From positions 1 through 57,182 of the forward strand of contig NZ_JXQZ01000035.1 of the NCBI RefSeq assembly GCF_000878135.1: 57,182 nt of DNA, written 5' to 3'. The DNA comes from Frigoribacterium sp. MEB024. GTDB lineage: Bacteria; Actinomycetota; Actinomycetes; Actinomycetales; Microbacteriaceae. Positions 6,575-54,699 of the stretch are shown piece after piece. Numbering within the stretch: position 1 is the first letter of the stretch; each line of letters opens with the position of its first letter. The notes below the pieces were generated by a model. That model made no database searches and was not told where the DNA came from. It was given only the letters and a program-made list of their open reading frames with translations. The position numbers were made by a program, and so were the translations under genes.

Positions 6575-7183
6575 ATGTCGACCGACGGGAGGATCGACGT
6601 GTGCGTGGTCGCCGACGAGGTGCTGACGCGGTCGGCGATCGAGGCGTGCATCCGTGTGACGCCGGGGCTGAAAGCCGTCGCGATCCACGAGTCCGCGAAG
6701 CCCTCCTCCGAACCAGGGCCACCCCCGCGGAGCGTGCTGGTCATCGACGCCGACGACCACCCCGACGTCGTGGACGCCGCCCGGCGACTGCGCGAAGGGC
6801 ACGACGCGGTCGTCGTCCTGGGTCGCCGCTTGCCCGCCGTGCTCGTCCGTCAGATCGTCCAGTCGGGCATCGACGCGGTCGTCTCGAAGCAGGCGAGCAT
6901 CGACGAACTCCTCGCCGTCGTCCGGCGAACGGCTGCCGGAGAAGACCACGTCGACCCGAGGTTGGCGGCCACGGTCCTCCGCGCCGAGGCGTGCCCGCTC
7001 ACGGCACGCGAGCGTGACGTCTTGCGCCTCGTCGAGCGGTCGCTCTCGACCAGACGGTGCGCCGCCGAACTGCACCTCGCCGAGGGCACGGTGCGCAACC
7101 TGATCTCGTCCGCCGTCCGCAAGGTCGGGGCGCCCGACCGAGGACGGGCCGCCTCGGACGCGCGAGATCTCGGTTGGATCTAG
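6575..7183 (+). CDS. NarL/DesR-type response regulator, orphan
   Basis: The 202-residue protein has a receiver domain with acidic D14/E15, the likely phosphoacceptor D58 in VLVIDAD and K105 in VVSKQAS. A LuxR-type HTH follows at about 130-180 (LTARERDVLRLVERSLSTRRCAAELHLAEGTVRN, key residues only), and the end is the DesR-like DARDLGWI. A GGGGG ribosome site lies five bases before the ATG. No histidine kinase is next to it. It is divergent from the ABC exporter, which suggests it controls that operon. The receiver is short and diverged between residues 35 and 55, so phosphorylation is not certain. Confidence 0.85.
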   Translation: MSTDGRIDVCVVADEVLTRSAIEACIRVTPGLKAVAIHESAKPSSEPGPPPRSVLVIDADDHPDVVDAARRLREGHDAVVVLGRRLPAVLVRQIVQSGIDAVVSKQASIDELLAVVRRTAAGEDHVDPRLAATVLRAEACPLTARERDVLRLVERSLSTRRCAAELHLAEGTVRNLISSAVRKVGAPDRGRAASDARDLGWI

Positions 7184-7240
7184 ACCCGCGCCTCCTCGGG
7201 GCAGACGGGGTCGAGCGGGCTCAGCCATCGCGACGACGAA

Positions 7241-7288
7241 TGGTCCCGGACCGTCGTCCGCCGTGGGGCGGAGGACGATCCGGGACCA
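7241..7288. terminator. Inverted repeat between convergent genes
   Basis: The arms at 7241-7259 and 7270-7288 (TGGTCCCGGACCGTCGTCC and its complement with two mismatches) enclose a 10-nt loop. It lies between the response regulator and convergent araA and can serve both. Confidence 0.7.
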
Positions 7289-7346
7289 CTCGATGCGCAG
7301 ACCGCGCGAGAAGCGCGAACCGCGAACCGCGAGCCGGCCGCGAGGC

Positions 7347-8876
7347 CTACAGGCCGCGGGCGAGGCGGTGGTACGCGGCGTTCCAGGCGACCTCGTGACG
7401 GAAGTCGCGGATGCGGGTGTCCTCGTCGATGACCAGCAGCTCGGTCTCGACGATGCGCGCCAGGTCTTCGAAGGCCTCGAGCCCGACCGCGGTCGACATC
7501 ACCGTGTGGTGCGCGGCGCCGGCCGTCAGCCACGCCTCGGCCGACACGGCGAACGACGGGCGGGGCTTCCACACCGCGCGCCCCACCGGCAGGTTCGGCA
7601 GGTCCTCGTCGGGCTCGACCACGTCGACCACGTTGACCGTGAGGCGGAACCGGTCGCGCACGTCGCTCATCGCGACGACGACGGCCGGGCCGGGGTCGGC
7701 GGAGAAGACCAGGCGCACCGGGTCGTCCTTGCCGCCGATGCCGAGTGCGTGCACCTCGAGCGAGGCGCGCCCCGACGTCAGCGCCGGGCTGACCTCGAGC
7801 ATGTGCGCCCCGAGGATCTTCTCCTCGCCGGGCACCAGGTGGTACGTGTAGTCCTCCATCAAGGAGGCGCCACCCGGCAGCCCGGCGCCCATCACGTTGG
7901 CCGCACGCACCAGCACCGAGGTCTTCCAGTCGCCCTCGGCCCCGAAGCCGTAGCCCTCGGCCATCAGGCGCTGGACCGCGAGGCCGGGCAGCTGCTTCAG
8001 TGCGCCCAGGTCTTCGAAGTTCGTGGTGAACGCGCTGAACCCGCCGGCCTCGAGGAAGGACCGCAGCCCGATCTCGATCGCGGCACCGTCCCGCAGCGAC
8101 TGGTGACGCTCGCCACCGGCGCGCAGCGCGGGCACGACGTCGTACTCGGCCTCGTACACCGCGACGAGCTCGTCGATCGCCGTGTCGGTCGCCGCGGCGA
8201 CGGCCTCGGCCAGCTCGTTGACGCCCCAGGTGTTCACCTGGACGCCGAAGGCCAGCTCGGCCTCGGTCTTGTCGCCCTCGGTCACGCCGACGAAGCGCAT
8301 GTTGTCGCCGAAGCGGGCCAGCTTGAGCGAGCGCATCGCCGAGGCGCCCGCGGCGGCGCGCATCCAGGTGCCCACCTGCTGCTGCACGCGCGGGTCGCTG
8401 ACGTGGCCGACGACCGTCTTGCGCGGCACGCCGAGACGGGTCTGCATGTAGCCGAACTCGCGGTCGCCGTGGGCGGCCTGGTTGAGGTTCATGAAGTCGA
8501 AGTCGATGTCGGCCCAGGGCAGCGCCACGTTCGCCTGCGTGTGCAGGTGCAGCAGCGGCTTGCGCAGGGCGTCGAGGCCGCCGATCCACATCTTGGCCGG
8601 GCTGAACGTGTGCATCCAGGCCGTGACGCCGATGACCGAGTCGTCGAGGTTCGCCTCGAGCATCGTGCGGCGGATGGCGTCGGCGTCGGTCAGCACGGGC
8701 TTCCAGACGAGGCGCACCGGCACGTCGGAGGCGGCGGCCAGCTCGTCGGCGATGGCACGCGACTGGTCGGCGACCTGCCTCAGCGTCTCTTCGCCGTAGA
8801 GGCCCTGACTGCCGGTGAGGAACCACACCTCTCGCGAGGCGAGGAAGGCGGTGGGGTCGAGCGTGTCGTTCGTCAC
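7347..8876 (-). CDS. araA: L-arabinose isomerase
   Basis: The 509-residue protein is full length for AraA (about 500). It carries [17 protein letters not shown] at the N-terminus, [41 protein letters not shown] and EGDWKTS. These contain the conserved residues of the hexameric Mn-dependent isomerase that converts L-arabinose to L-ribulose in the cytoplasm. The GTG start at 8876 overlaps the araD stop as GTGA. It is the last gene of araB-araD-araA. The hairpin at 7241 closes the operon. Confidence 0.97.
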
Positions 8877-9586: not shown

Positions 9587-11400
9587 GCGGTCACCCCCGC
9601 GTCGCTCGTGGCCGAGGCGGTGGCGTCCTGCTCGAGGGCGTCCGTGCCCCGGGCGCTCTCGGCGTTCGCCGAGGGACCCGAGGAGGCGCGGGTCGCCTCG
9701 CGACGCATCGCCCGCAGACGGTGCATCACGTCGTTGCCGCCCCGACCGAACCAGTCGTGCAGCAGGAGGTACTCGGCGTAGAGCGCGTCGTACGCGTCGG
9801 CGGCCGCCTCGTCGGGAACGTAGGTCGCCCGGTCGACGCTGCCCATGGCCTCGGCCGCCGAGCGGATGTCGGGGTAGGCACCCGCGGCGACGGCGGCGTG
9901 GATGGCCGAGCCGAGGGCCGGGCCCTGCTCGCTCGTGATGGTCGAGATCGGCAGGCGCAGCACGTCGCTGTAGGTCTGCATCAGGTGGGCGTTCTTGAGC
10001 AGGCCGCCTGCGGCGATGAACTCGGTGACCGGCACGCCGGACTCCTCGAAGGCCTGCACGATGCGGCGGGTGCCGAAGGCCGTGGCCTCGAGCAGCGCGC
10101 GGTAGCCCTCTTCGGGCGTCGTGCTGAGCGTCTGGCCGACGATGACGCCGCTGAGCTCGTGGTCGACGAGCACCGAGCGGTTGCCGCTGTGCCAGTCGAG
10201 GGCGACGAGGCCGTGGGCCCCGACGGGCTGCTCGTAGGCGAGGTCGGTGAGGTGCTGGTGCACGCTCTTGCCGGCCGCCGCGGCGGCCTCGACCGACGAC
10301 TGCGGCACCTGGTTCTTCACGTACCAGGCGAAGATGTCGCCGACGCCGGACTGGCCCGCCTCGTAGCCGTAGAGCCCGTCGACGATGCCGCCGTCGACGA
10401 CGCCGCACATGCCGGGCACCTCGGCCAGTTTGTCGCCGTTCATCACGTGGCAGGTGCTCGTGCCCATGATCGCGACCATCTGGCCGGGCTGGGTGGCCTT
10501 GGCGGCCGGGGCGGTGACGTGCGCGTCGACGTTGCCGACGGCGACGGCGACGCCCTCGGGCAGTCCGGTCCAGCCGGCGGCCTCGGCGGTCAGCGTGCCC
10601 GCGACGTCGCCCAGGGCGCCGATCTCGTGCACGACCTTGGTCTCGGCGAAGTCGGCGAAGTCGGGGTTGAGTGCGGCGAGGAACTCACGGCTGGGGTACT
10701 CGCCGTCCTGGTAGATGCCCTTGTAGCCCGCCGTGCAGGCGTTGCGGACGTACCGACCGCTCAGCTGCCAGACGATCCAGTCGGCGGCCTCGACCCAGTG
10801 CTCGGTCGCGGCGTAGACCTCAGGGTCCTCTTCGAGCAGCTGCAGGCCCTTGGCGAACTCCCACTCGCTCGAGATGAGCCCGCCGTACCGGGGCAGCCAC
10901 GACTCGCCACGCGACGCAGCCAACTCGTTGATGCGGTCGGCCTGGCCCTGCGCGGCATGGTGACGCCACAGCTTGACGAAGGCGTGCGGGCGGTCGGCGA
11001 AGCGGTCGAGCTCGTTGAGCGGGGTGCCGTCGGCGGTGGTCGGCACCATGGTGCAGGCGGTGAAGTCGGTGCCAATGCCGACGACCGCGGAGGGGTCGAC
11101 GCCCGACGCGCGAAGGGCCTCGGGCACTGCGTTCTTCAGCACGTCGACGTAGTCGGACGGCACCTGCAGGGCCCAGTCGGCGGGGAGGCGCTCGCCCGTG
11201 CCGGGGAGGGTGCGGTCGACGACGGCGTGCGGGTACTCGAACGTGGCACTGGCCAGTTCGGCGCCGTCGCGGACGCGCACGACGACGGCCCGGCCGCTGA
11301 GCGTGCCGTAGTCGACGCCGACGACGTACGTGTCGGCCGACGTGCCGGCGGGGTCGGGAGCCGCGGGCGACGAGTCGGAGGGGATGGCGGTCTCAGCCAT
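9583..11400 (-). CDS. araB: L-ribulokinase
   Basis: The 605-residue FGGY-family kinase has [15 protein letters not shown] at the N-terminus, the substrate loop [11 protein letters not shown], and [19 protein letters not shown] plus [15 protein letters not shown] in the ATP-binding C-terminal half. It phosphorylates L-ribulose to L-ribulose 5-phosphate. The last 35 or so residues are a Ser/Ala-rich tail not typical of the family, and the tail begins with one copy of the dispersed GAGGAGGCGCGGGTC motif (9680-9694, read as EATRASSG). A ribosome site AAGGACG precedes the ATG. Transcription starts behind the LacI-type operator at 11423-11440. Confidence 0.96.
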
Positions 11401-12482: not shown

Positions 12483-12585
12483 GAGGTGATCCTAGTTCGG
12501 TTCGGTTTTCGGGACGTCGGTGTCCTGCGCGGCCGACCCGCGCCTCCTGCGGTCTGGTCGGTGCCCGCCGGGGCGGGGAGACGAG

Positions 12586-12619
12586 GAGGCGCGGCTCCCG
12601 TGACCGGGAACCGCGCCTC
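12586..12619 (-). terminator. Terminator hairpin of the sugar transporter operon
   Basis: The 15-bp arms (12586-12600 and 12605-12619) pair with one mismatch around the loop TGAC, just past the mmsB stop. The left arm begins with the dispersed motif core GAGGCGCGG. A single reverse copy of the motif lies at 12535-12548. Confidence 0.8.
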
Positions 12620-12640
12620 TTCGCGGGATGGTGCGGCTCG

Positions 12641-15495: not shown

Positions 15496-15530
15496 CGAGG
15501 AGGCGCTGGTCGGCGACCGGCGCCTCCTCG
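15496..15530 (-). terminator. Intra-operon hairpin between chvE and mmsA
   Basis: The 16-bp arms CGAGGAGGCGCTGGTC / GACCGGCGCCTCCTCG pair around a 3-nt loop. The arms are two inverted copies of the dispersed motif. Placed after the binding-protein gene, it could partly end or stabilise the transcript, giving excess binding protein. Confidence 0.7.
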
Positions 15531-16839: not shown

Positions 16840-16929
16840 TCAGGCCGGAGCGGCCGCGAGGAGGCGCGGGGCGGGCGACGTGCGGACGGCCCGGTGGGCG
16901 GCCGGGCGGCGGAGGGAGGAGCTGTTCAC
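16840..16929 (-). CDS. Possible 29-residue leader ORF in the chvE leader
   Basis: A GTG at 16929 is preceded by GAAGAGGT at good distance and opens a 29-codon frame (begins MNSSSLRRPAAH) that ends in TGA at 16840. Nearly every codon ends in G or C. It lies between the promoter at 17053 and chvE. The frame includes one copy of the dispersed motif (16858-16872). The surrounding DNA is so GC-rich that codon bias is weak evidence. No function can be given. Confidence 0.25.
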   Translation of the reverse strand: MNSSSLRRPAAHRAVRTSPAPRLLAAAPA

Positions 16930-17559: not shown

Positions 17560-18606
17560 CTAGAACGCGGCGATGGTCCAGCTCGCCGAGTGGGCCTCGC
17601 CCGGGGCGAGCAGTACGAGGTCGTCACCCGAGTTGAAGGCGTCCGGCGGACAGGTCATCGGCTCGACGGCCAACCCGACCCGGTCGTTCTCGGGCTCGGG
17701 GCGATCGGCGGTGTGCACCTGCACCCAGGGCAACTCGGCACCCCACGACATGGTGACGCCGTGCCCGTCGCGCGCGGTGACCGTGGCGGTGACCCGCGCC
17801 TCCTGTGCGGGGCCGCCCGCGCCGTCGACCGCGGTGAACGCGAGGTCGGTGAAGGCGTGGTCGACGAAGAGGTCGCCGATCGCGTGCCCGTCGCGGAAGT
17901 CGAAGCCGTCACGGTCGCCGACCGGCCGCGTGCCGACGGGCACGAGGCGGTCGTCGGTCACCTCGAGGTAGCTCGCGGCGGGCAACGTGAACGACCAGTC
18001 GTCGACGCGGCCCTCGCCGGCGACGAGGTAGGGGTGCGGCGCGGTGCCGTAGGGGGCGACGCCCGTGCCCGCGTTGCGGGCCGTGACGGTCGTGGTGAGC
18101 CCGTCGTCGGTCAGCTCGTAGACGACCGACAGCGCCAGTCGCCACGGGTAGCCGTCGCTCGGCACGAGCACGAACGAGGCCGAGGCCCTCGCGGCCTGGG
18201 CCTGGTCGATCGTCCAGTCGGCCCAGTGGGCCAGGCCGTGCAGGGCGTGGCCGCGTTCGACCTCGTTGAGCGGCAGCTGGTGCTCCACCCCGTCGCGCTC
18301 GTATCGGCCGTCGGTCACGCGGTTGGGCCACGGGGCGAGCAGCGCCCCGCGGAAGCCCGGTCGCACCTCGTCGGCGGCGAACGGCACGACCAGGTCGCGG
18401 CCCTCGAAGGTGAGGGTGCGCAGCGTGGCCCCGACCCCGGCGATCTCGGCCCGGTAGCCAGCACGCTCGAGCACGACCTGCGCACCCGAGACCGGCACCG
18501 GCGACGTGACGAGCCTCGCGGTCGGTGGCGCACCCGGTGCGGGCTCGACGACGGGGGGCGTGGTGCCGGGCGGCGGCACCGAGGCGACGGGGGTGGGCTC
18601 AGACAT
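17560..18606 (-). CDS. Aldose 1-epimerase (mutarotase), GalM family
   Basis: The 348-residue protein has a Pro-rich N-terminal extension of about 35 residues, then a galactose-mutarotase-like fold: LLAPWPNRVTDGRY, NEVERGHALHGLAHWADW (the catalytic-type His pair), YGTAPHPYLVAGEG and a C-terminal VGLAVEPMTCPPDAFNSGDDLVLLAPGE. The final Glu of AVEPM is the expected base. It interconverts sugar anomers. The ATG at 18606 overlaps the alditol oxidase stop by 8 bp, so both are made together. The dispersed motif at 17791-17804 encodes QEARVT in a surface-type loop. Confidence 0.85.
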   Translation of the reverse strand: MSEPTPVASVPPPGTTPPVVEPAPGAPPTARLVTSPVPVSGAQVVLERAGYRAEIAGVGATLRTLTFEGRDLVVPFAADEVRPGFRGALLAPWPNRVTDGRYERDGVEHQLPLNEVERGHALHGLAHWADWTIDQAQAARASASFVLVPSDGYPWRLALSVVYELTDDGLTTTVTARNAGTGVAPYGTAPHPYLVAGEGRVDDWSFTLPAASYLEVTDDRLVPVGTRPVGDRDGFDFRDGHAIGDLFVDHAFTDLAFTAVDGAGGPAQEARVTATVTARDGHGVTMSWGAELPWVQVHTADRPEPENDRVGLAVEPMTCPPDAFNSGDDLVLLAPGEAHSASWTIAAF

Positions 18607-19925: not shown

Positions 19926-20990
19926 GGCTCCGTCGGTGGCCTGCCAGCCGAGGAGGGGGCCGAGGCGCTCGGCGGCGTCGGTCAGCACCTGCGTGTACTC
20001 GGCGAGGCCGAAGTCGAAGGGCAGCTCGACGATGAGGTCGTCGACCTCGCGCATCGCGGCGTTCTCGTGGAGCTGCTCGGCGATCCACTCGGACGGGCCG
20101 ACGAGGTCGCGGTCGAACATCATGCCCCGGGGACCGTGGGCCACGGTCGTGCGGTCGCGACGGGAGGACGCGTAGGCCTCGTACGCCGCACGCTGCTCGG
20201 CGGTGGCCGTGTCGGTGGGCAGGACGACCGCGCCCTTGGCGACCCGCGCCTCCTGACCCGCGGGGTGGACCGCGCGGAAGGCGCGGATCTGGTCGAGCTG
20301 CGACGCGGCGAAGCGGGTCGGCTCGATCGGCCCGGGCGCGCCCGCGAAGCTGACGTTGCTGATGAGCATGCCGAGGCCCTGCCGGCCCGCCCACTCGGCG
20401 GACCGCGGGCTGCCCGCGCCGTACCAGACGCGGTCGGCGAGACCGGGGCTCTGCGGCTGCACCCGCCCGGTGTAGACCTCGATGCCCTCGGTGCCCTCGA
20501 ACGCACTGACCTGCTCGCCACGCACGAGCGAGAGGAACTTCTCGACCCGGCCGTACGAGAAGTCCTGGTGATCGGAGGCGTCGCCGTAGAGGTGCGGGGC
20601 GATCTCGTCGTAACCGCGGGGCTCGCCGACGCTGACCCCCAGCTGCAGCCGTCCACGCGACAGCACGTCGACCGTGCCCCAGTCCTCGGCCAGGCGGAAC
20701 GGGTTCTCCCAGCCGAGCGGCATCACGGCCGTGCCGAGGGTGAGGCGCGAGGTGCGCTGCGCCGCGGCCGAGAGGAACGCGACGGGCGACGAGATGCCGA
20801 ACTGGAGGTGCCGCGTACGCGTCCAGCCGCCGTCGAGACCCAGCGCCTCGGCCCGCTCGAACAGCTCGAGCCCCTGCTCGAGACCGGCGGTCGGGTCATC
20901 GCCCTCGAAGGCGCCGATGGTGAGGAAGCCGAGACGGCGCAGCGGCCTCGCGGCGGCGGACGGGGCGGACGACGAGGAGGCGGTGGTCAC
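19920..20990 (-). CDS. LLM-class flavin-dependent oxidoreductase
   Basis: The 356-residue protein has the bacterial luciferase-like fold: RLGFLTIGAFEGDDP, FERAEALGLDGGWTRTRHL, LTLGTAVMPLGWENPFRLAEDWGTVDVLSRGRLQLGVSVG. The substrate is unknown. The GTG start at 20990 gives a Ser/Ala-rich N-terminus, and a start nearer RRLGFLTIG is possible. The dispersed motif at 20241-20254 is read as QEARVA in a variable region after the barrel core. It lies upstream of the alditol oxidase on the same strand, separated by that gene's own operator and promoter. Confidence 0.85.
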   Translation of the reverse strand: MTTASSSSAPSAAARPLRRLGFLTIGAFEGDDPTAGLEQGLELFERAEALGLDGGWTRTRHLQFGISSPVAFLSAAAQRTSRLTLGTAVMPLGWENPFRLAEDWGTVDVLSRGRLQLGVSVGEPRGYDEIAPHLYGDASDHQDFSYGRVEKFLSLVRGEQVSAFEGTEGIEVYTGRVQPQSPGLADRVWYGAGSPRSAEWAGRQGLGMLISNVSFAGAPGPIEPTRFAASQLDQIRAFRAVHPAGQEARVAKGAVVLPTDTATAEQRAAYEAYASSRRDRTTVAHGPRGMMFDRDLVGPSEWIAEQLHENAAMREVDDLIVELPFDFGLAEYTQVLTDAAERLGPLLGWQATDGAE

Positions 20991-21721: not shown

Positions 21722-21803
21722 CCTCGTCGGCGCGTCGACCTGAGCCCGGTCGCTCACCGAACGGACGCGAACGGCGCATCGGGCCGCGCCGCGCCTCCCG
21801 GGC

Positions 21804-23243: not shown

Positions 23244-23367
23244 GCGTCCTACTGTGCCGCACCGCGCCTCCTCGTCCACCGGGCGGTGACGCCGTGTTGC
23301 ACGACGGGAAGGCCGGGCGGCACCCGTCGCCCCGCGTTTCGTGCACGACACCGCGACGAGACGAGGT

Positions 23368-25111: not shown

Positions 25112-26086
25112 TCAGTAGCCCTGCTCGACGTCGACGACGCCCTCGGGGTCACCGCCGTCGGCCAGCGCCCGGATGTTCGCCTCGACCCGGGCCTGGAAGA
25201 GCGGCTCGGTCATCGCGTTCGTGTTGGCCTGGTGCGGGGTGAGCAGGGCACGGGGTTCGGCCCACAGCGGGTGACCGTCGGGCAGCGGCTCGGGGTCGAC
25301 GACGTCGAGGCCCGCCGCCCCGATCCGCCCCTCGGCGAGCGCCGCGACGAGGGCGTCGGTGTCGACGAGCGGACCGCGGGCGATGTTGACGAGCACGGCC
25401 GTGTCCTTCATGGCGGCGAACTCGTCGGCTCCGAGCAGGCTGCGGGTGCCGCCGGTGAGCGCCGCGGCGACGACGACGACGTCGCTCGTCGGCAGCACCT
25501 CGGCCAGGCGGTCGACCGTGATGGTGCGGGCCGCGCCCGGGACGTCCTCGTCGGTACGGCGCACCATCGTCACCTCGACGTCGAACGGCTGCAGCAGGCG
25601 CAGCAGCTCGGTCCCGATGCCGCCGGCGCCGACGATGGTGACGCTCGCCCCGTTCAGCGAGATGCCCCGCTGCTCGCGTTCCCACGAGGAGGCGCGGGCC
25701 CTGATCTGCAGGGAGCGCAGGGTCGCCAGCGTCAGCGCCAGGGCGTGCTCGGCCACGGGTGCGCTGTAGGCCCCCTTGGCGCTGGTGAAGACGAGACCGT
25801 CCCGGGCGGTGGCCTGCATGGTCTCGACGTAGGCGTCGACGCCCGCGCTCGGCAGCTGCACGATGCGGACGCCGGGGTGCTGCTCGATCGCGGATCGCAA
25901 CTCGCCCTGGTCGATGCGGCCGCCGACGACGATCATCTCGGTCTCGTCGCCGAGCTCGACCAGGCGGGCGTCGGTCGCGTCCACCGCCCGCTTCGCGGGC
26001 GCGACGCCCCACGTGTCGCCCGACGACCCCTCGGAGTCGGCGGTGGCGGAGGCGGCGGGGAGGACGGTGACGGCGACGGTGCTCAT
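25112..26086 (-). CDS. D-isomer-specific 2-hydroxyacid dehydrogenase
   Basis: The 324-residue protein has the NAD-binding GAGGIG of the Rossmann fold (about residue 150), and the catalytic Arg (VNIARGPLVDTDAL), Glu (LDVVDPEPLPDG) and His (LLTPHQANTNAM). It would reduce 2-keto acids or oxidise D-2-hydroxy acids; the substrate is unknown. The N-terminal 30 residues are Ser/Ala-rich, so a start farther in is possible. A copy of the dispersed motif (25686-25700) encodes RARASS just before the Rossmann domain, at the interdomain linker. Confidence 0.85.
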   Translation of the reverse strand: MSTVAVTVLPAASATADSEGSSGDTWGVAPAKRAVDATDARLVELGDETEMIVVGGRIDQGELRSAIEQHPGVRIVQLPSAGVDAYVETMQATARDGLVFTSAKGAYSAPVAEHALALTLATLRSLQIRARASSWEREQRGISLNGASVTIVGAGGIGTELLRLLQPFDVEVTMVRRTDEDVPGAARTITVDRLAEVLPTSDVVVVAAALTGGTRSLLGADEFAAMKDTAVLVNIARGPLVDTDALVAALAEGRIGAAGLDVVDPEPLPDGHPLWAEPRALLTPHQANTNAMTEPLFQARVEANIRALADGGDPEGVVDVEQGY

Positions 26087-26644
26087 CCGTCCACCGTATC
26101 GATCAGGTCACGAAAGCGACTCAGGCTCGTGTCTTCGTCGGACCGGTGGCAGAGTGACGCCGTCTGCCGGTCGCGAAACCCGATCGTGGACGCGGGAGGC
26201 ACGGGTCAACGGCGACACGCGCCTCCTTCCCTCCGACCTCGCCCGGCGACGGTCGACCGCCCCTGCGGGCAGGGGTACGCTGTCCCACGGCCCAGGCGGG
26301 CCCACGGCCCCACCGGGCCCGGCGGCAGCACGACGGAAGGCAGGTGAGCGGCGATGGCTGGTGACAGTACTGGCGCCCCGCGGCATCGCTCCGTGATCGC
26401 GCCGTCCGCCCCGCTCGTCTGAGCTGCGGGCCCGACCGACCACGAGCGATGCCCACGGGCACCGACGTCTCCTGTCGACGCACGTCGTCGACGACCCGAC
26501 ACCCCGGTGTCGTCTCGTCGCCCGTGTGCGTCGCCCCGGCCCCCACCGCACACCCGTCGTCCGCACGGCTGTCGTGACCACCACCGGTACGACATCGTCC
26601 CTCGACGGACGGTCGTCGCACCCCGAACGGCAGGAGCGCAGACC
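26087..26644 (+). other. Gene-free 558-bp region and probable corA leader
   Basis: No convincing gene is present. It contains GC-rich direct repeats around 26293-26326, a possible folded stretch with GCGATG...CATCGC arms at about 26351-26387, and a strong hairpin at 26489-26520 (15-nt arms, 2-nt loop, short bulges), about 125 bp before corA. Metal-sensing leaders occur before Mg transporters, but I could not match the known M-box core. Confidence 0.35.
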
Positions 26645-27724: not shown

Positions 27725-27772
27725 GAGAACGCAGGAGGCGCGGGTCGGGTGACCTGCGCCTCCTGCGTTCTC
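27725..27772. terminator. Bidirectional terminator hairpin between corA and osmC
   Basis: The 22-bp arms (27725-27746 and 27751-27772) pair with a single mismatch around GGGT. Each arm contains a copy of the dispersed motif, so the hairpin is an inverted pair of that motif. Confidence 0.85.
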
Positions 27773-30592: not shown

Positions 30593-31275
30593 TGGACCCC
30601 GTCGAGAACGCCAGCTTGCACGACCTCCCCCGCCCGGACACGGCCTCCGAGATCGCGGCGACGTTCGGTCGCCCCGTGTACACGTTCGTCGAGCAGCCCC
30701 GCCTGGACCTCACGCAGCCCAGCACGATCGCGCACGACGACGTGCTGGACACCGTTGCCCTGAACTACGTGTTCGTCGCCGACCCGTCCGACCCCGGTGC
30801 CCCGTCCAACCTGGTCGAGAACGTCGCCGAGATCGACCATCACCTGGCGAACGCGGTGGACGCCGGACAGCCCGAGTGGTTCCTGGCCGGACTGCGGGCG
30901 TTCCGGTACCCGATGCTGTGGGAGGCGGTGGCCACCACGGTCGTACCCGACGAACCGGAACGGTCGGGCGGACGCGATCCCGTGGCGGAGCATCTCGCTC
31001 GGCACGTGAACCACGTGCTGATCAACACGGCCGAGGGGCGGAGCACCCGACCCGACGGCGCCGTGCCCGTGGTGGACGCCCCCGTGACCGTCCGGCATGC
31101 GCAGCCGGGAGCGGTGCTCGTCGTCGACGGGGTCGAACACGACGCCGTGCTGATCGACACCGATCCCGACCTGGTCGGCTGGGGCACCGAGGTCGACGGC
31201 TCGATCGTGCTCGTGGTGCTGCCGCGGGACCTCGTGCCGCTGGTCGACCTGCGGTTGGCGTCCCTCGCGACCTGA
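30592..31275 (+). CDS. Hypothetical protein co-translated with the EamA exporter
   Basis: The 227-residue soluble acidic protein begins MDPVENASLHDLPRPDTASE. Its centre has PSNLVENVAEIDHHLANAVDAGQPEWFLAGLRAFRYPMLWEAV, mostly helix, and its end is strand-rich (AVLVVDGVEHDAVLIDTDPDLVGWG). No known motif is visible to me. Its start overlaps the exporter stop by 1 bp, so a role linked to the exporter or its substrate is a fair guess, not more. Confidence 0.7.
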   Translation: MDPVENASLHDLPRPDTASEIAATFGRPVYTFVEQPRLDLTQPSTIAHDDVLDTVALNYVFVADPSDPGAPSNLVENVAEIDHHLANAVDAGQPEWFLAGLRAFRYPMLWEAVATTVVPDEPERSGGRDPVAEHLARHVNHVLINTAEGRSTRPDGAVPVVDAPVTVRHAQPGAVLVVDGVEHDAVLIDTDPDLVGWGTEVDGSIVLVVLPRDLVPLVDLRLASLAT

Positions 31276-31336
31276 CCCGCGCCTCCTCGGCTTCCCTCCC
31301 CCACCGCCACCTGCGGGCGCTCGACGACGACAGGGC

Positions 31337-33780: not shown

Positions 33781-33876
33781 TCGGGGTGTTGGCAAACCGT
33801 CGCGCGGGGCGCTGCGAGCCGAACGGCGACCACCGGACGCCGACCCGCGGTCGACGGTCAGGAGGCGCGGCGCCGC

Positions 33877-34806
33877 TCAGGCGGGGACGAGCACGTCCCG
33901 AGGCAGCACGGCGTGCACGCCCCAGGTCCGGTTGGCGACCTGGGTGACGCGCAGGTCGACGACCGTGCTCGCGAAGGCCAGTGCCGTGGCGGCGTCGACG
34001 CCGTAGAGCTGCTGCATCCAGATCACCATCGCGGCGAGCGCGTCCCCGCTGGCGACGTTGAGGTCGGCGTCGAAGCCGAAGGTGATGCGGGCTTCGGGGG
34101 TCTCGGCGTGGATCGTCGTGAGCGGGCGGTCCGTCGCCAGGCCGACCCGCGCCTCCGTCGTCATGCCGGTCTCGATCGCGGTGCCACCGACCTCGCCGTC
34201 GCCCTGGGCCGCGTGCCCGTCGCCGAGGTAGAGCAGGGCGTCGTCGACCGCCACCGGCAACCAGAGGGTCGTGCCCGCGACGAGGTCACGGCAGTCGATG
34301 TTGCCGCCCACGGAGGTGCGGGGCGGGATGGTCGAGTGTTCTCCGGCCTCGGCGGGGGCGAGTCCCATGACGCCGAGGAAGGGCGCGATCGGTCGACGCA
34401 GGCCCCTGCTCTCGGTGGCGGTGCCCGCCTCGTGGTCGATGCTCCAGAGCAGCCAGGCGGCTTCGGCGTCGACCAGGCCGAGGTGGCGGGTGATCGGGGT
34501 GTCGGCGGCCGCGGCGACCGTGAATCCCCAGTCGTCGGGGGTGAGCGAGAGCAGGTCGAGCTGGAGCATGTCGCCCGGACGGGCTCCGCGGACGGCGATC
34601 GGACCGGTCAGGGCGTGACCCCGCCGCGTCGGGAAGAGGTACGGCGTGACCTCGCCGGGCACGGTCTGCGGCTCGAGGTGACCCGAGGCGTCGAGCGAGC
34701 GCACGACGACGGTGTCACCGGGGTCGATCGTCAGCACGGGGGCGTGGTCGCGCGAGAAGACCTCGTGGGCGGTGTCGGTGCTGGGGTCGAGGCGGTGGGT
34801 CGTCAT
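33877..34806 (-). CDS. Acetamidase/formamidase family protein
   Basis: The 309-residue beta-rich protein has GRARPGD-type VRGARPGDMLQLDLL, the metal-site region GGNIDCRDLVAGTTLWLPV and LYLGDGHAAQGDGEVGGTAIE, all hallmarks of FmdA/AmdA. It hydrolyses formamide or short amides to ammonia. ATG 34806 was chosen by family start (MTTHRLDPS). It stands alone, divergent from the small gene at 34938. A copy of the dispersed motif (34144-34156) encodes TEARVG in a loop. Confidence 0.9.
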   Translation of the reverse strand: MTTHRLDPSTDTAHEVFSRDHAPVLTIDPGDTVVVRSLDASGHLEPQTVPGEVTPYLFPTRRGHALTGPIAVRGARPGDMLQLDLLSLTPDDWGFTVAAAADTPITRHLGLVDAEAAWLLWSIDHEAGTATESRGLRRPIAPFLGVMGLAPAEAGEHSTIPPRTSVGGNIDCRDLVAGTTLWLPVAVDDALLYLGDGHAAQGDGEVGGTAIETGMTTEARVGLATDRPLTTIHAETPEARITFGFDADLNVASGDALAAMVIWMQQLYGVDAATALAFASTVVDLRVTQVANRTWGVHAVLPRDVLVPA

Positions 34807-36374: not shown

Positions 36375-37705
36375 CCGGGGACGCAGGAGGCGCCTCCTCG
36401 GTCACCCGGGCACCTCGCGACCACCGCGGCCCCCTCGCTCACGGCACGTTCCGCTGGCTGCTCGCGGCGCGCACGACGGGCGTGCTCGGCAACGCCGTCG
36501 CCCCGATCGCGCTCGCGTTCGCCGTGCTCGACCTGACCGGGTCGGCGGCGGACCTCGGACTCGTGGTGGCCGCCCGATCGATCGCCAACGTCGCGGTGCT
36601 GCTCTTCGGAGGCGTGATCGCCGACCGGCTGCGGCGCGACGTCGTGCTCGTCGGGACGTCGCTGGCCGCGGCCGGGACGCAGGCCGTGGTCGCGACGCTC
36701 GTCATCACGGGGTCGGCGACGATCCCGCTGCTCGTCGTGTTGGGCGTGCTGAACGGGGCGGTCGCCGCGGTGAGCCTGCCCGCGGCGGCGGCTCTCGTGG
36801 CCGAGACGGTGCCCGACGCCCTGCTGCGGCCCGCCAACGCGCTGCTGCGCCTCGGCCTGAACGGAGGCAGCGTCGTCGGGGCCTCGGCCGGGGCGGGCAT
36901 CGTGGCGGTGGTCGGGCCGGGGTGGGGTCTGGTGATCGACGCCGCGGGGTTCGCGCTCGCGGGCGTGCTGTACTCGCGGCTGCGCCTGCCCGCCCGGCCG
37001 GGAACCCCGGCGACCGGCGCGGCAGACACGGGCTCGGGCACGGGCACGGGCACGGGCTCGGGCTCGTCGGTGCTCGCCGACCTGCGCGACGGGTGGCAGG
37101 AGTTCACCCGGCGCTCGTGGGTCTGGATCGTGGTGGCGCAGTTCGCGGTGCTGAACGCCGCGTTCGTGGGGGCGACGACGGTGCTCGGGCCCGTCGTGGC
37201 GGACGGGTCGTTCGGGCGGGCGGCCTGGGGACTCGTCGTCGCGGCCCAGACCGTCGGCCTCGGCCTCGGGGCCGTCGTCGCCCTGCGCTGGCGACCCCGG
37301 CACGGCCTCGCCGTGGGCGTGGGGCTGATGGCCGTGACGGCGATGCCGGTGGCGATGCTCGGGCTGGCGCCGGCGGTGCCCACGCTGGTGGTGGCGTTCC
37401 TGCTGGGCGGCGTCGCCCTCGAGATCTTCGCCATCTCGTGGGACCAGTCGTTGCAGGGCAACGTTCCCCGCGCCTCCCTGGCCCGGGTCTACTCGTACGA
37501 CATGGTCGGCTCGTTCGTGGCCGTGCCGCTCGGCGAGGTGTTCGCCGGGCCGGCGGCACACCATTTCGGCACGCGACCGACGCTGCTCGTCTGTGCCGCG
37601 ATCATCGTCACGGCGACCCTGGCGGCCGTGGCGACGCCTGGTGTCCGCCGACTGACGACCGAGGTGACGACCGGAGCCACGACCGACCGGGCTATCGGGC
37701 CGTGA
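36371..37705 (+). CDS. MFS exporter, MFS_3/enterobactin-exporter type
   Basis: The 444-residue protein has 12 predicted helices. Helix 1 region is FRWLLAARTTGVLGNAVAPIALAFAVLDLTGSAADLG, and the 2-3 loop is GGVIADRLRRD. The central loop holds a Gly/Thr/Ser repeat made by a GGGCAC tandem repeat at 37032-37060. The GTG start overlaps the ArsR stop and the first codons contain the palindrome AGGAGGCGCCTCCT, an inverted pair of the dispersed motif's core. Its 3' end overlaps the convergent umuC gene by 14 bp. Substrate unknown, probably a drug-like compound. Confidence 0.85.
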   Translation: MTGDAGGASSVTRAPRDHRGPLAHGTFRWLLAARTTGVLGNAVAPIALAFAVLDLTGSAADLGLVVAARSIANVAVLLFGGVIADRLRRDVVLVGTSLAAAGTQAVVATLVITGSATIPLLVVLGVLNGAVAAVSLPAAAALVAETVPDALLRPANALLRLGLNGGSVVGASAGAGIVAVVGPGWGLVIDAAGFALAGVLYSRLRLPARPGTPATGAADTGSGTGTGTGSGSSVLADLRDGWQEFTRRSWVWIVVAQFAVLNAAFVGATTVLGPVVADGSFGRAAWGLVVAAQTVGLGLGAVVALRWRPRHGLAVGVGLMAVTAMPVAMLGLAPAVPTLVVAFLLGGVALEIFAISWDQSLQGNVPRASLARVYSYDMVGSFVAVPLGEVFAGPAAHHFGTRPTLLVCAAIIVTATLAAVATPGVRRLTTEVTTGATTDRAIGP

Positions 37706-40146: not shown

Positions 40147-41379
40147 TCAGCCGGCGAGGGCGTCCCGCAGGGCGGTCTCGTGATCGACCAGTCGACCGGC
40201 GCGGGCCGACGACGCCACCTCGTCGAGCCGCTCGGCGAGGTGCAGCGCCGCTGCCAGCACGGCCGGTTGGTCGAGGGCGTAGGTGCGGACGGTGTGGAAG
40301 AGCGAGTCGACGAGCGCGTCCACCGTCGGCCACGTGACGAGGACGACCGGCTCACCCCGGTCGTCCAGCAGGGCCGTGAAGGGCTCGCCCCGACGCCAGA
40401 GCGGCACGAGCACCCCGGCCGACATGTCGAGCGCACTCACCGCGGTGTACGGGTCGTTGCTCCCCGAGGCGAGACCGCGCACGGCGATCTCGACGAGTTG
40501 TTGCAGGGCGAACCCGACGTCCTGGTGAGGGGTCCGGGCGGGTCCCAGGGTGGCCGCCCGTCGCAGCTCACGGACCGTGTCGGACCCCGGGGAGGCGCTG
40601 GTCACCACGAGCGGGTCCCCCACGATCACGTACCGGTCGGGCATCGCCACGACCTCGACGACGAGGCCTTCGCGCACGGCGACGCGGCGGAGCGCCTCCC
40701 ACGCGACGGTCTGCACGTAGCCGTCGGCGTGTGCCCGGACGACGGCCGCGTCGGCCGGGAGCGGACCGTCCGCCGAGGACCCCACCCGCGCCTCCTGACT
40801 GACGTCGTCGGCCGGGCTCGTGGGGTAGACGACGTCGGTCACGGCCCGGAGGTCGTCGAGCACGCGCGCCTGCAACGAGGTGATCTGCACCGAGCCGGCG
40901 ATGTGGTGGATGAAGAAGACCAGCACCCCGACGTCGAACACGCTGAGCAGGACCGCGACGTGGACGGCGATCACCGGGACGAAGGCGCTGGTGTCGTCGA
41001 CCTCGGTGTGGACGGTGCGCGTCACGACGATGCAGTAGAGGAAGGTCGAGGTGAAGGTCGCCAGCACGAACTGGTTGGCACGGTCGGCCATGAAGTGGCG
41101 GACGAGTCGCGGGCCGTAGGTCGACGACGTCGTGGCGAGCACCGAGATCGTGATCGAGAACGACGTCCCGGCCACGGTCAGCATGGACGTCCCGATGCCC
41201 GACAGCAACGACCGTCCCCCGGAGGCGCTGAGGGCACCCAGCAGCGGCAGCCCCTCGGTCACCGTCGTCGGCAGGGACCGGTCGACCGTCACCAGCACCT
41301 CGGCGAGGACGACGGCGACGAGCCCGAACACGGCGGGCAGGAACCAGAACGACTCCCGCACGCGGGTCGACGACAGCAT
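40147..41379 (-). CDS. DUF2254 membrane protein
   Basis: The 410-residue protein has four N-terminal membrane helices (about 12-35, 60-85, 105-125, 135-165) with the family pattern ...SMLTVAGTSFSITISVLATTSSTYGPRLVRHFMADRANQFVLATFTSTFLYCIVVTRTV. A soluble C-terminal domain of 230 residues follows (DGYVQTVAWEALRRVAVREGLV). The role of DUF2254 is unknown. The dispersed motif (40783-40797) encodes QEARVG in the linker between the membrane and soluble parts. Confidence 0.85.
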   Translation of the reverse strand: MLSSTRVRESFWFLPAVFGLVAVVLAEVLVTVDRSLPTTVTEGLPLLGALSASGGRSLLSGIGTSMLTVAGTSFSITISVLATTSSTYGPRLVRHFMADRANQFVLATFTSTFLYCIVVTRTVHTEVDDTSAFVPVIAVHVAVLLSVFDVGVLVFFIHHIAGSVQITSLQARVLDDLRAVTDVVYPTSPADDVSQEARVGSSADGPLPADAAVVRAHADGYVQTVAWEALRRVAVREGLVVEVVAMPDRYVIVGDPLVVTSASPGSDTVRELRRAATLGPARTPHQDVGFALQQLVEIAVRGLASGSNDPYTAVSALDMSAGVLVPLWRRGEPFTALLDDRGEPVVLVTWPTVDALVDSLFHTVRTYALDQPAVLAAALHLAERLDEVASSARAGRLVDHETALRDALAG

Positions 41380-51389: not shown

Positions 51390-51457
51390 GGCTGTCATCC
51401 TAGGGCGCGGTCGACCCAGGACGGAACCCACGGAAGGCCGACGGAGCGACCCGATCG

Positions 51458-52846
51458 TCAGTCGCGCTTGGCGCAGGTGACCTGATCGGCGGACTGGCCC
51501 GTCACGCTGCTCGGGAGCTCGGCCGACGTCGGCGCCGGCTCGGGCGTCGGCGCCACACCGGTCGCCGACCCGTCGGCCGGAGCGACGTCGGGCGCCGGCG
51601 CGGACGGCTCGCCCGTCGCCTCGGCGGACGGGTCGGTCGACGTGCTCGGCGCCGGTGCGTCCGGGTCGAGCACCGCCGACCGCCCGAGGCTGTCCGTCGA
51701 CAGGGTCAGCGGCAGGTCGCGCTGCAGCGCCTCGTCCAGGACCGACGCCGACGCCTCGTCGACCAGGACGCGGTTGCGATCCGCGGGGTCGTCCACCGCC
51801 GGGTACTGCACGAAGACCATGTTCGACAGCCCGACCGTGTTCACGGCGAGGGCGAGCTTGGCGAGGGTCGACGCGTCGGCCAGCGTGTCGCTCAGCGTCA
51901 TGTTCGCGAACGCCACCCGCGCGATGGCCAGCACCTTGGTCGGGTCGGTCAGCGTCCCCGCCGACACCGTCTGCCGGGCGAGCGCCGAGAGGAACGTCTG
52001 CTGGTTGCTGATGCGCCCGAGGTCGCTCGAGTCGCCGACCCCGTAGCGCGACCGGAGGAACGCCCCGGCCTCGGCCCCCGACAACGTCCGCGTGCCGGCG
52101 GGCAGGTCGAGGGCGGGCTGGACCTCGGTGTCGCGGATCGGCGTCGCCAGGCACACGTCGACGCCGCCGATGGCGTCGGCCATCGACACGACCCCCTCGA
52201 AGGTGATCGACCCGGCGTAGTCGATCTGCAGTCCGGTCAGCTGGCCGATCGTCTGCGCCACGCACGACAGCCCGTTCTTCGGTCCGCCACGACCCAGCGC
52301 GGTGTTCAGCATCGCGCCCGAGGTCGCCGGGCTGACCGTGCCGTCGTCGTTCGGGCACGCGGGCATCGGCACGATCAGGTCGCGCGGGAAGCTGACGACC
52401 GCCATGTTCGTGTGGTCCTCGGAGATGTGCACGAGCACCGTCGAGTCGTTCTTGCCCGCCCCCGAGCTGGCCCGCTGGTTGGCGGCGTCGTTGAACCCGG
52501 TGCCCAACCCCTCGCGGGTGTCGGTGCCGATCAGCAGCAGGTTCACCTCGCCGGTCTGTGCCGTCAGCTGCGGTACGGGCGAGGCGGACGACCCGTCGGG
52601 TCCGGCGAGCGGCACCGTGGGCCTCGCGCCCTGCAGCACCTGCCACGTGGCGATGGCCGCGACCGAGGTCGTGCTGACGAGCACGACGGCCAGCGCGGCC
52701 GCCGTGATCTTCGCCGCGAACGCCACGGGGTGGCCACGGCGGAGGCGACCGTGGCGGGCGATCCCGCCTTCGCGCACCGCGCCTCCTCGGCTCGTCGAGC
52801 CGTCGGCGTCGTCGAGTGCTCGCTCGGTGCGTCCGTCGTCGGTCAT
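51458..52846 (-). CDS. LytR-CpsA-Psr (LCP) family glycopolymer transferase
   Basis: The 462-residue protein has a cytoplasmic N-terminus of about 40 residues, one membrane helix (about 45-68) and the LCP domain: NLLLIGTDTREG, STVLVHISEDHTNMAVVSFPRDLIVPMP, GVDVCLATPI, LSGAEAGAFLRSRYGVGDSSDLGRISNQQTFLSALA. The conserved Arg and Asp residues for polyprenyl-phosphate binding are present. The C-terminal tail is Pro/Ala/Thr-rich. LCP enzymes join wall polymers to peptidoglycan. It follows the glycosyltransferases and precedes the LAFTG protein on the same strand. Confidence 0.93.
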   Translation of the reverse strand: MTDDGRTERALDDADGSTSRGGAVREGGIARHGRLRRGHPVAFAAKITAAALAVVLVSTTSVAAIATWQVLQGARPTVPLAGPDGSSASPVPQLTAQTGEVNLLLIGTDTREGLGTGFNDAANQRASSGAGKNDSTVLVHISEDHTNMAVVSFPRDLIVPMPACPNDDGTVSPATSGAMLNTALGRGGPKNGLSCVAQTIGQLTGLQIDYAGSITFEGVVSMADAIGGVDVCLATPIRDTEVQPALDLPAGTRTLSGAEAGAFLRSRYGVGDSSDLGRISNQQTFLSALARQTVSAGTLTDPTKVLAIARVAFANMTLSDTLADASTLAKLALAVNTVGLSNMVFVQYPAVDDPADRNRVLVDEASASVLDEALQRDLPLTLSTDSLGRSAVLDPDAPAPSTSTDPSAEATGEPSAPAPDVAPADGSATGVAPTPEPAPTSAELPSSVTGQSADQVTCAKRD

Positions 52847-52958
52847 GCGCGCCCCCTCGGCGAGAAAGGGCTCGGGCGGCCCTCGTCGGGACGAAGCATA
52901 GGAGGCGCGGGCCGGGAAACCCCGGAGGTCGCCCCGTCGGCGTCCCCGGCCGTCCCGG

Positions 52959-53288
52959 TCAGGCGCTCTCGCCGAGCGTGGCCGGCGCGACGGCGGGCAG
53001 GACGTCCTCGGTCCAGTCGACCCGCAGGGAGCCGGACCCCGACCAGCCACGCAACTCGGCACCGACCGTGTCCCGGAAGGTGGCCGCCTCGTCGCGGTCG
53101 CCCACGACGACGTCGAGCCGCAGCCGCGCCAACTGCTCGGTGACGCGGACGGGGAGGCCCCAGGCCTGCAGCACGAGCACCTCGGACGCGGCGCTCAACG
53201 CCGGGAAGTGCCGCCGGAGCTTCTGCTCGACGACGTGCAGCACGGCCACTTCGTCGGTGGGGTGGATCACTCCGGTCAGCGAGATCAT
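52959..53288 (-). CDS. Hypothetical protein, 109 residues
   Basis: A small soluble alpha/beta protein, MISLTGVIHPTDEVAVLHVVEQKL at the start, with a central ASEVLVLQAWGLPVRVTEQLARLRLDVVVGDRDEAATF. No known motif. It stands 112 bp upstream of the LCP gene on the same strand; the gap holds a copy of the dispersed motif (52910-52920). Confidence 0.65.
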   Translation of the reverse strand: MISLTGVIHPTDEVAVLHVVEQKLRRHFPALSAASEVLVLQAWGLPVRVTEQLARLRLDVVVGDRDEAATFRDTVGAELRGWSGSGSLRVDWTEDVLPAVAPATLGESA

Positions 53289-53442
53289 GCCTGATGGTCC
53301 GCCCGGGAGGTTACGGCAGTATGGCCACCCGCTGTGAAAGCACCCGGCCTCGCCTCGTCCCCTGCGGCGGCTTGTCCCCCGGCGGGTCCCCCGCGGGCAC
53401 GACCGTGTTGGCAGATCGGCCCCGGGTGGGCATGATCGTCAC

Positions 53443-53727
53443 ATGGCGAAAAAGCTCAAGACGGCCCACCGCGACCTCGTCGAGGCGCTCGACCACCACC
53501 GCAAGGTCATGCAGGAGAAACCGCTGTCGAGCAAGCGCGCCGGGCGGGCGACCGCCAAGCTGCGACTCGCCGTCTCGGCCTACTCGGCGGTCGTCGCCGA
53601 CAAGACGGGCCAGCCCGACCCGTTCGTCGACTACGACGCCCTCGACCCGGCCACCGTCGCGTCGCTCGCCGCCGAACGCGACGCCATCGCCCACAAGAAG
53701 TCGTCCGACCAGGGCACGCTCGACTGA
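53443..53727 (+). CDS. Hypothetical protein, 94 residues
   Basis: A small charged helical protein, MAKKLKTAHRDLVEALDHHRKVMQEK at the start and KKSSDQGTLD at the end, Lys-rich at both ends. It has no cysteines or membrane helix. No clear ribosome site is seen, so the transcript may be leaderless. It lies between two leftward units and ends before the inverted repeat at 53759. Function unknown. Confidence 0.65.
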   Translation: MAKKLKTAHRDLVEALDHHRKVMQEKPLSSKRAGRATAKLRLAVSAYSAVVADKTGQPDPFVDYDALDPATVASLAAERDAIAHKKSSDQGTLD

Positions 53728-53758
53728 CCCGGCCGCGCCGCGCCTCCTCGGGGCGGTG

Positions 53759-53822
53759 TCGCACCGCCGACCGGACGTCGCACCGCCCACATCGACGGTG
53801 CGGTGTTCAGTCGGCGGTGCGA
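53759..53822. terminator. Long inverted repeat between convergent genes
   Basis: The 27-bp arms (53759-53785, 53796-53822) pair with about five mismatches around a 10-nt loop. The left arm repeats CGCACCG with a 12-nt spacing, the same internal layout as in the element at 1971. A copy of the dispersed motif lies just before it (53738-53750). Confidence 0.7.
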
Positions 53823-53862
53823 TTCCGGCCCGCCGACTCGGGGCGGGTCAGACCGGGGCGGC

Positions 53863-54699
53863 TCAGCTCGGGACGGCCGTACCCTCGACGAGCGCCCAGC
53901 CGCCGTCGGTCGTGCGGCGCACCGCCCCGGCCCGCTCGAACGCGTCGAGCCAGCCACCCATCGGCCACTCACCCCAGCGTTCGGCGAACAAGCCACCGTT
54001 GCGCACGACGTCGGCCAGGTGCCGCCACGGCGGGGACGAGGTCGGGTGGTACTGGTGGTACGCGTGGGCGCCGCCGACCCAGACGAGCGGGACGTCGAGC
54101 GAGCGCGCGGTGAACGCGAAGTCGGTGTCCTCGCCGCCGTAGCCCTCGTACCGTTCGTCGAAGCCGCCGAGCCGCGCCCAGGTGTCCGGCGTCACCGCGA
54201 ACGAGAGCGACCAGAACAGCGGGTAGTCCGCGGCGCCCGCGACGAGCGTCGTCCCGGCGGGAGGCGCGGGTCGCGCCGCGTGCGGAGCGGTCGCCGCCTC
54301 GAGTCCCTCGCCGCCACCGAGCACGAACCCGTCGGGCAGGTAGGTGACGGGTCCGCTCAAGAGGGCCCCCGGGTGGTCGAGCGCCGCCTGCTCGTAGTGA
54401 CGGAAGAGGTCGGCACCCGGGACGCAGTCGGCGTCGAGGAACACGATCAGCGTCGCGCCGTGACCGACGGCCGCGTCGGCTCCGCGGTTGCGCCCCGCGG
54501 CGAGGCGCAGGCCGTCGGGGCCGGGCGGGACGTGCAGGGTCGTCACGCCGGCCAGGGCGGGCACGTCGGGGGCCGGGGTCTCGTCGAGCCAGACGACCAC
54601 GTGGCCGGCGTCGGGGGCGACCTGCCGGACGAACCGCAGCTGGTTCGCGACGTGCTTCATGCGGGTGGCGGACGCGAGGGTCACGACGACGACGGTCAC
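53863..54699 (-). CDS. Family 2 glycosyltransferase
   Basis: The 278-residue GT-A protein has VTVVVVTLASATRMKHVANQL at the N-terminus, GLRLAAGRNRGADAA, the DxD motif in LIVFLDADCVPGADLF, and the GFDERYEGYGGEDTDFAFTAR acceptor motif. It adds a sugar from a nucleotide donor to a wall or exopolymer glycan. GTG start overlaps the upstream stop as GTGA. It is the last gene of the glycosyltransferase chain. A copy of the dispersed motif (54260-54272) encodes ARPAPPAG in a loop. Confidence 0.88.
   Translation of the reverse strand: MTVVVVTLASATRMKHVANQLRFVRQVAPDAGHVVVWLDETPAPDVPALAGVTTLHVPPGPDGLRLAAGRNRGADAAVGHGATLIVFLDADCVPGADLFRHYEQAALDHPGALLSGPVTYLPDGFVLGGGEGLEAATAPHAARPAPPAGTTLVAGAADYPLFWSLSFAVTPDTWARLGGFDERYEGYGGEDTDFAFTARSLDVPLVWVGGAHAYHQYHPTSSPPWRHLADVVRNGGLFAERWGEWPMGGWLDAFERAGAVRRTTDGGWALVEGTAVPS

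Follow-up and report, generated by a model that had tools for sequence, protein, structure and literature searches.

A dispersed, unoriented DNA motif of Frigoribacterium as a possible uptake-sequence-like tag

Copies of the motif in the window and in the genome

A stretch of 57,182 bp from Frigoribacterium sp. MEB024 (contig NZ_JXQZ01000035.1, positions 1 to 57,182; hereafter the window) carries, within its genes, at their ends and between them, many copies of a short DNA motif represented by the 11-mer GGAGGCGCGGG, which we analyzed in the window, in the genome to which the window belongs (own genome; 3,406,371 bp in 136 contigs) and in other Microbacteriaceae, and which we tentatively propose to be a tag of self DNA comparable to an uptake sequence. 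In the window, GGAGGCGCGGG was found 14 times exactly, with 6 copies on the plus strand and 8 on the minus strand, in agreement with the first-pass annotation of this DNA, which had claimed at least 13, and the abundance turned out to be greater than first thought. A search for AGGAGGCGCGGGTC with up to three mismatches returned 56 places, including 7 exact and 12 one-mismatch copies, and the 15-mer GAGGAGGCGCGGGTC was present in 3 copies. The own genome has 846 copies of GGAGGCGCGGG, 432 forward and 414 reverse, whereas the motif letters in reversed order, which were counted in each genome as the control for enrichment, occur 14 times genome-wide (9 + 5), corresponding to an excess of about 60-fold and bearing out the claim of a genome-wide element. 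In a sample of 437,582 bp from the own genome, consisting of the window and a further 380 kb, GGAGGCGCGG was observed 181 times, where a third-order Markov model predicts 4.5, and AGGAGGCGCGG was present in 137 exact copies.

Genes were called by a coding-potential script of our own, by which only 74% of the pooled samples for a second motif, described below, were called coding; because the script misses genes, all counts in and between genes are approximate. No gene was called at 3202-6604 of the window, despite a long minus-strand open reading frame at 3198-5780 (860 amino acids); either the composition of this stretch is atypical or the script falls short here.

The copies in the window were present in each of the modes claimed earlier, as intergenic singles, as inverted pairs and within genes. 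Among those at or beyond gene ends, an exact AGGAGGCGCGGGTC at 7183..7196 (minus strand) lies at a gene 3' end and overlaps the last base of the predicted TAG stop, and an exact copy at 31274..31287 (minus) overlaps a predicted stop codon in such a way that the core starts one base past the stop. Gene 3' ends also hold core-exact copies at 33860..33873 (plus) and 53735..53748 (minus, between convergent genes), and a GGAGGCGCGG copy with G as its first base lies between convergent genes, 4 bases off a gene 3' end (21786..21799, minus). Further intergenic copies are an exact one at 12535..12548 (minus) and core-exact ones at 52900..52913 (plus) and, in a divergent region, 16859..16872 (plus). 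A AGGAGGCGCGG core copy at 23259..23272 (minus) is close to a predicted gene start. There are four inverted pairs. The first, at 12584..12621, has its plus arm at 12584-12597 and its minus arm at 12608-12621 and is predicted to fold at -37.1 kcal/mol (z -4.0); the second, with one-mismatch arms, lies 3' of a gene at 15498..15528 (-43.6 kcal/mol, z -6.5); the third, at 27733..27764 between convergent genes, joins one exact and one one-mismatch arm in an extended hairpin of -49.2 kcal/mol (z -9.8); and a degenerate pair at 26194..26227 gives a weak hairpin of -23.9 kcal/mol (z -1.5).

The copies within predicted genes include those on the strand opposite to the gene, namely a AGGAGGCGCGG core copy at 1358..1371 (minus), an exact AGGAGGCGCGGGTC at 9681..9694 (plus, in a minus-strand gene), a core-exact copy at 25687..25700 (plus), a GGAGGCGCGGGTC copy at 54259..54272 (plus) and a GGAGGCGCGG copy with first base G at 57010..57023 (plus). 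The others in genes are exact copies at 17791..17804 and 20241..20254 (both minus), one-mismatch copies at 32623..32636 (plus) and 34144..34157 (minus, with GGAGGCGCGG exact), a GGAGGCGCGGG copy at 37465..37478 (minus), a core-exact copy at 40783..40796 (minus) and a AGGAGGCGCGG core copy at 52774..52787 (minus).

The motif can be written approximately as (C/G)AGGAGGCGCGG(G/T)(T/G)C, with a strict centre GGAGG-C-GC, and is contiguous and non-palindromic. The coding sequence of four Frigoribacterium samples, 1.07 Mb in all, holds the consensus 165 times, with 12.6 expected; single substitutions in the centre were mostly near or below expectation, the exceptions being T for C at position 7 (17, with 2.4 expected) and A for G at position 8 (8, with 2.5 expected). 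The first base is variable, being C (44 against 8.6 expected), G (37 against 4.5) or, less so, T (11 against 2.8); the final two positions are loose, and the flanks show weak preferences at most, up to about +17. As judged from these counts, the substitution pattern resembles that of a site read by a protein.

Copies in genes, at gene ends and on the two strands

In the 437,582-bp sample, 75 of the 137 exact AGGAGGCGCGG copies lie in genes, 36 in sense and 39 in antisense orientation. Shuffling of synonymous codons (30 shuffles each) gave 1.6 + 2.8 in-gene copies (4.4) when done globally and 2.9 + 3.0 (5.9) when done within genes. Codon usage, which the first-pass annotation had named as the possible undoing of the motif, was therefore rejected as its cause.

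The genome totals show no strand bias, and a proxy for leading and lagging strand, in which the majority gene direction was taken as the leading strand, gave 44/49, 26/33, 3/6 and 28/35 in the four Frigoribacterium samples, none of them significant. The suggestion of an origin- or replication-orienting signal is thus supported by neither measure. An oriented, architecture-imparting motif of the type of the FtsK-orienting polar sequences (KOPS) was likewise rejected, because the motif is strand-symmetric in the totals, by the proxy and in 20 samples of one complete contig. A chi-like recombination hotspot, read by a nuclease of the RecBCD, AddAB or AdnAB type, would fit the short, non-palindromic form and the copy number in the hundreds, with many copies in genes. 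However, the orientation bias is absent both genome-wide and by the proxy, which reflects gene direction only, and facing pairs are preferred, as described below; moreover, known chi sequences have 5-8 bases and the Frigoribacterium motif is longer. We rejected chi on strand symmetry and regard it as a quite improbable explanation.

The remaining 62 exact copies of the sample are intergenic, in 49 kb, with 20 per 7.4 kb between convergent genes, 38 per 25.0 kb between tandem genes and 4 per 16.0 kb between divergent genes. These densities indicate that the copies mark 3' ends and are scarce upstream of divergent genes; hence a Shine-Dalgarno sequence, considered as the motif starts with AGGAGG, was also rejected. 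When pairs of copies with up to one mismatch and starts 20-29 bp apart were collected, 14 were facing, 3 back-to-back and 3 in the same direction. Folding z-scores, which were calculated against single-base shuffles with the better of both strands taken, were below -2 for 10 of 13 paired copies, 8 of 43 intergenic singles, 1 of 74 in-gene singles and 5 of 100 random windows, suggesting that the inverted pairs at gene ends are able to form terminator hairpins.

The strong folding of the gene-end pairs would also fit a family of hairpin transcription terminators with a standardized stem, of which the in-gene copies are by-products, and in one genome of the related genus g32 (G105) as many as 16 of 32 copies are arms of intergenic pairs. 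For Frigoribacterium, however, the excess of in-gene copies on both strands stands against it, and these copies are unstructured and, as described below, conserved, so that we consider it improbable as an account of the motif. The first-pass annotation had also offered a repetitive extragenic palindromic (REP)-like element. A REP or bacterial interspersed mosaic element (BIME), moved by a REP-associated tyrosine transposase (RAYT), would explain the presence of intergenic inverted pairs, but more than half of the exact copies in the sample are in genes, where singles are unstructured, and no Y1 transposase (RAYT-type, Y1_Tnp) was found in any of 7 genomes searched. This candidate was rejected on these grounds and is, in our view, scarcely credible.

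Conservation and variants in Microbacteriaceae

To follow the motif through the family, GGAGGCGCGGG was counted in 398 genomes. All 10 Frigoribacterium genomes, the own one included, have 394-846 copies against 14-37 of the control, and a weaker excess was found in 7 of 9 genomes of genus g32 (66-166 against 16-32). The other two g32 genomes are without excess (G327, 18 against 13; G354, 21 against 24), G055 of genus g55 has 92 against 44, and the other genomes of the family are mostly near the control level. Over 8,000 bases, a locus of Frigoribacterium sp. Leaf8 aligns with the own genome at 94.9%. The samples of g32 match Curtobacterium loci at 81-84% over 2.9-4.8 kb and Frigoribacterium loci at 76%, and g32 is most likely Curtobacterium, the sister genus. 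A scan for AGGAGG-type inverted pairs found at least 80 loci; among the matches listed, 63 were from Frigoribacterium, 10 from Curtobacterium and 7 from scattered unrelated taxa.

Conservation was determined for 60 sites on one contig of the own genome (220 kb) against stretches of two relatives, with 10-mers matched in GC count, and in genes also in codon phase, as controls. Against G401 (90% identity in the aligned part), 44 of the 60 sites align, and full conservation was observed for 17 of 24 coding sites (control 0.244; p 2e-6) and 12 of 20 intergenic sites (control 0.274; p 0.002). Against G330 (82%), 35 of the 60 align, with 6 of 21 coding sites (control 0.092; p 0.01) and 6 of 14 intergenic sites (control 0.040; p 9e-6) fully conserved. 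Aligned copies are kept between species more than control words.

Variants were counted in 21 genomes. The two words SAGGAGGCGCGG occur 341-1010 times in all 10 Frigoribacterium genomes and 6-35 times in all 9 of g32. The word CTGGAGGCGCGG has 10-20 copies in Frigoribacterium, and in g32 it has 388, 428, 409 and 479 copies in four genomes, 30 and 48 in two and 10-20 in three, indicating that part of g32 has a one-base variant. No clear candidate for a replacement motif was seen in 40 kb from each of two variant-free g32 genomes (G295, G327). The Frigoribacterium genomes G298 and G035 contain GGAGGCGCGGG 686 and 672 times, whereas SAGGAGGCGCGG reaches just 341 and 436 in them, which may point to another sub-variant in the opening bases of the motif.

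A second word, CGGATGC or CGGATGCC, was enriched in many genera of the family in a survey for which 60 stretches were requested, 6 of which were under 6 kb. Counted in 100 whole genomes, CGGATGCC stood at a ratio of 5 or more to its reversed control in 50 of them, and in 45 of 84 genera, and at a ratio of 10 or more in 27, with a top ratio of 34.8 (4,041 against 116) and a highest count of 4,093 (genome G142), and 19 of the 100 genomes were at a ratio of 2 or below; in 111 genomes from other families of the order, the ratio was at most about 3.8. In pooled samples from 20 genera chosen for enrichment, CGGATGC had 354 coding copies against 110 by codon shuffle, and its pairs within 45 bp were 15 facing, 5 back-to-back and 6 in the same direction. 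The concentration between convergent genes seen for the Frigoribacterium motif is absent from CGGATGC, which has 3 copies in 5.4 kb there and 15 in 9.1 kb between divergent genes. CGGATGC is near the Markov expectation in the samples of Frigoribacterium (99 against 89.5) and g32 (40 against 43.0), and the ratio of CGGATGCC to its reversed control is 1.6 in the own genome, 1.2 in G035 and 2.9 in the g32 genome G031. The common centre GGA(T/G)GC suggests that one word may have replaced the other.

The genomes bearing CGGATGCC, among them G057, G142, G063, G025, G029 and G079, show no strand bias in their totals, and a facing pair is exemplified by G063:C1 1786/1804. A replication polarity of CGGATGCC that appeared in an all-plus listing for G049 and G077 was rejected as an effect of the listing, because 20-kb samples show CGGATGC on both strands (7/9 in G049; 9/2 in G077, the latter not significant at 0.01) and the genome totals of CGGATGCC by strand are about equal (286/353 and 571/554). 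Other repeats were also encountered in the family: ACGGATGC is extreme in the genus of G053, with 36 separated places in the 60 kb of G053:C1:1-60000 (L193-L195) where 3.05 were expected, and a different repeat unit around CGGGTTGAGGA, partly in tandem arrays, lies at 4767-9473 of G008:C1 (L202; genus g9).

Clade-specific words with variants could in principle follow the specificity subunit of a restriction-modification or phage-defence system of which the motif is the target sequence. Such target sites, however, are not generally known to be sixty-fold enriched or paired at gene ends, and we hold this explanation to be very improbable.

A possible uptake-sequence-like role and known systems

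The reading that we prefer, at just under an even chance, is that the motif is a tag, specific to the genus, by which self DNA is recognized in the manner of a DNA uptake sequence. It is proposed because a non-palindromic word in hundreds of copies, on both strands, in genes and at their ends, in hairpins and with variants has the profile published for uptake sequences, and over-representation, in-gene excess in both orientations, inverted pairs at gene ends and clade-specific dialects were all observed here. A DNA-binding component of the competence machinery would prefer motif-bearing DNA, transformation would thereby draw on the DNA of kin, recombination of DNA with the tag would maintain the copies and spread them, and the inverted pairs at gene ends would double as hairpin terminators. 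We infer all four elements of this scheme: the recognizing protein, the link to uptake, the terminator activity and the spread by recombination. From the earlier suggestions of an origin- or recombination-guiding sequence and of a DNA-protein binding site, the scheme retains a protein-recognized site guiding DNA exchange, and the replication-orienting part is lost with the absence of strand bias.

Several observations weigh against this reading. In the sample, 11-mers with one mismatch are about as frequent as exact ones (147 against 137), with the excess mostly at outer positions, whereas in one Neisseriaceae dialect one-mismatch copies add 21% (PMC3630211). The spacing of the motif is no more regular than random (Kolmogorov-Smirnov p 0.48; mean 2.9 kb, 132 intervals), and stretches that do not align with the relatives show no clear depletion of copies (8 copies in 32.7 kb there and 52 in the other 187.3 kb, a small comparison that lies partly beyond the range fetched from the relatives). 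In G105, a facing partner is present for 17 of the 32 GGAGGCGCGG copies, and 16 of these 17 lie between genes, whereas 6.6% of random own windows would have one; in-gene copies number 8, with 2.8 expected and 6 as the highest value in 20 shuffles, indicating that the hairpin form dominates in this genome. In 77 kb from 10 named Curtobacterium loci, picked for AGGAGG pairs, CTGGAGGCGCGG occurs once. Genes for the competence machinery are no help either: ComEC was found in 16 of 16 genomes and HHH_3 (ComEA-type) in 34 of 34, and neither discriminates, since both are found with and without the motif; PilM was found in 8 of 10 Frigoribacterium genomes, and the two with no match, G330 and G357, are rich in the motif; TadE is present in 2 of the 6 Frigoribacterium genomes searched and was not found in the other 4; and thus no uptake pilus tracks the motif in the PilM and TadE searches.

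Outside Frigoribacterium, PilM was found in 9 of 9 g32 genomes, motif-free ones included, in 2 of 2 of g55, and in 7 of 9 genomes chosen as rich in CGGATGCC against 2 of 12 chosen as poor in it; small genomes make up five of these 12. Correlation with PilM, TadE, HHH_3 and ComEC singled out no receptor system, and the machinery test is neutral to negative for the uptake reading. In favor of that reading, the HHH_3 and ComEC matches of the own genome start 0.85 kb apart. The comEA-comEC region of this genome (L268, G000:C92:68500-73500) contains four GGAGGCGCGG copies in 5 kb. In the motif-free g32 genome G327 (L265, G327:C1:2119500-2127500), the comEA-type gene and comEC are split by about 3.6 kb with other reading frames; in the remaining five of the loci compared, the two genes are close to each other. 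Micrococcus luteus is reported to be transformed by way of Flp pilus genes (PMC4322843), and by term search two competence papers on this species do not mention uptake sequences (PMC4322843, PMC8467076).

That the competence genes do not track the motif would be expected of a binding site for a chromosome-organizing, repair or recombination protein outside the uptake machinery, that is, an unoriented architectural or recombination site, and so would a genome-wide, unoriented and conserved motif whose centre tolerates few substitutions. Hairpin pairs, placement at 3' ends and clade variants are, however, not known to be usual for such sites, and we consider this alternative rather unlikely, albeit one to be taken seriously.

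The uptake reading may be extended to a family-wide, uptake-like self-recognition in Microbacteriaceae with dialects, in which about half of the genera would use CGGATGCC and Frigoribacterium and its sister genus would have switched to the lengthened AGGAGGCGCGG or CTGGAGGCGCGG, which share GGA(T/G)GC; we regard this extension as possible but doubtful. If these proposals are true, the dialect switch could act as a barrier to genetic exchange between genera and offer a natural experiment on dialect switching, the tagging of DNA as 'self' would have arisen again in a different envelope, that of high-GC Gram-positive bacteria, and natural competence would be predicted in Microbacteriaceae, on whose competence the literature searched has little. 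To our knowledge, genome-wide uptake tags are known from two Proteobacterial families only, and we found no description of the Frigoribacterium motif or of an actinobacterial uptake sequence in the literature searched. Even if the motif does not serve uptake, a conserved, unoriented site in hundreds of copies throughout a genus represents unexplained genome biology.

With respect to known systems, REP and BIME elements share the intergenic inverted pairs and differ from the present motif in its in-gene majority and in the RAYT search, and chi shares the short non-palindromic form and the many copies within genes and differs in strand bias. Uptake sequences have copy numbers in the hundreds to thousands, frequently form inverted repeats that act as terminators and come in clade-specific dialects (PMC12616744, PMC3630211, PMC2397512). 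The uptake signal sequence (USS) of Pasteurellaceae is likewise a tag spread over the whole genome, with types that follow subclades and with many copies in inverted repeats, although it has AT-rich downstream tracts (PMC12616744), in place of which the present motif has only its weak flank preferences. The DNA uptake sequence (DUS) of Neisseriaceae is similar in being a contiguous, non-palindromic word of 10-13 bases found in genes and between them, with terminator-linked inverted pairs and dialects (PMC3630211, PMC2397512, PMC12616744). Unlike the DUS, the motif here belongs to another phylum, has a GC-rich, unrelated sequence, is sparser, at its mean spacing of 2.9 kb, and is looser at its outer positions. 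Taken together, and with no claim to membership in the class, the Frigoribacterium motif appears to be most like an uptake sequence.

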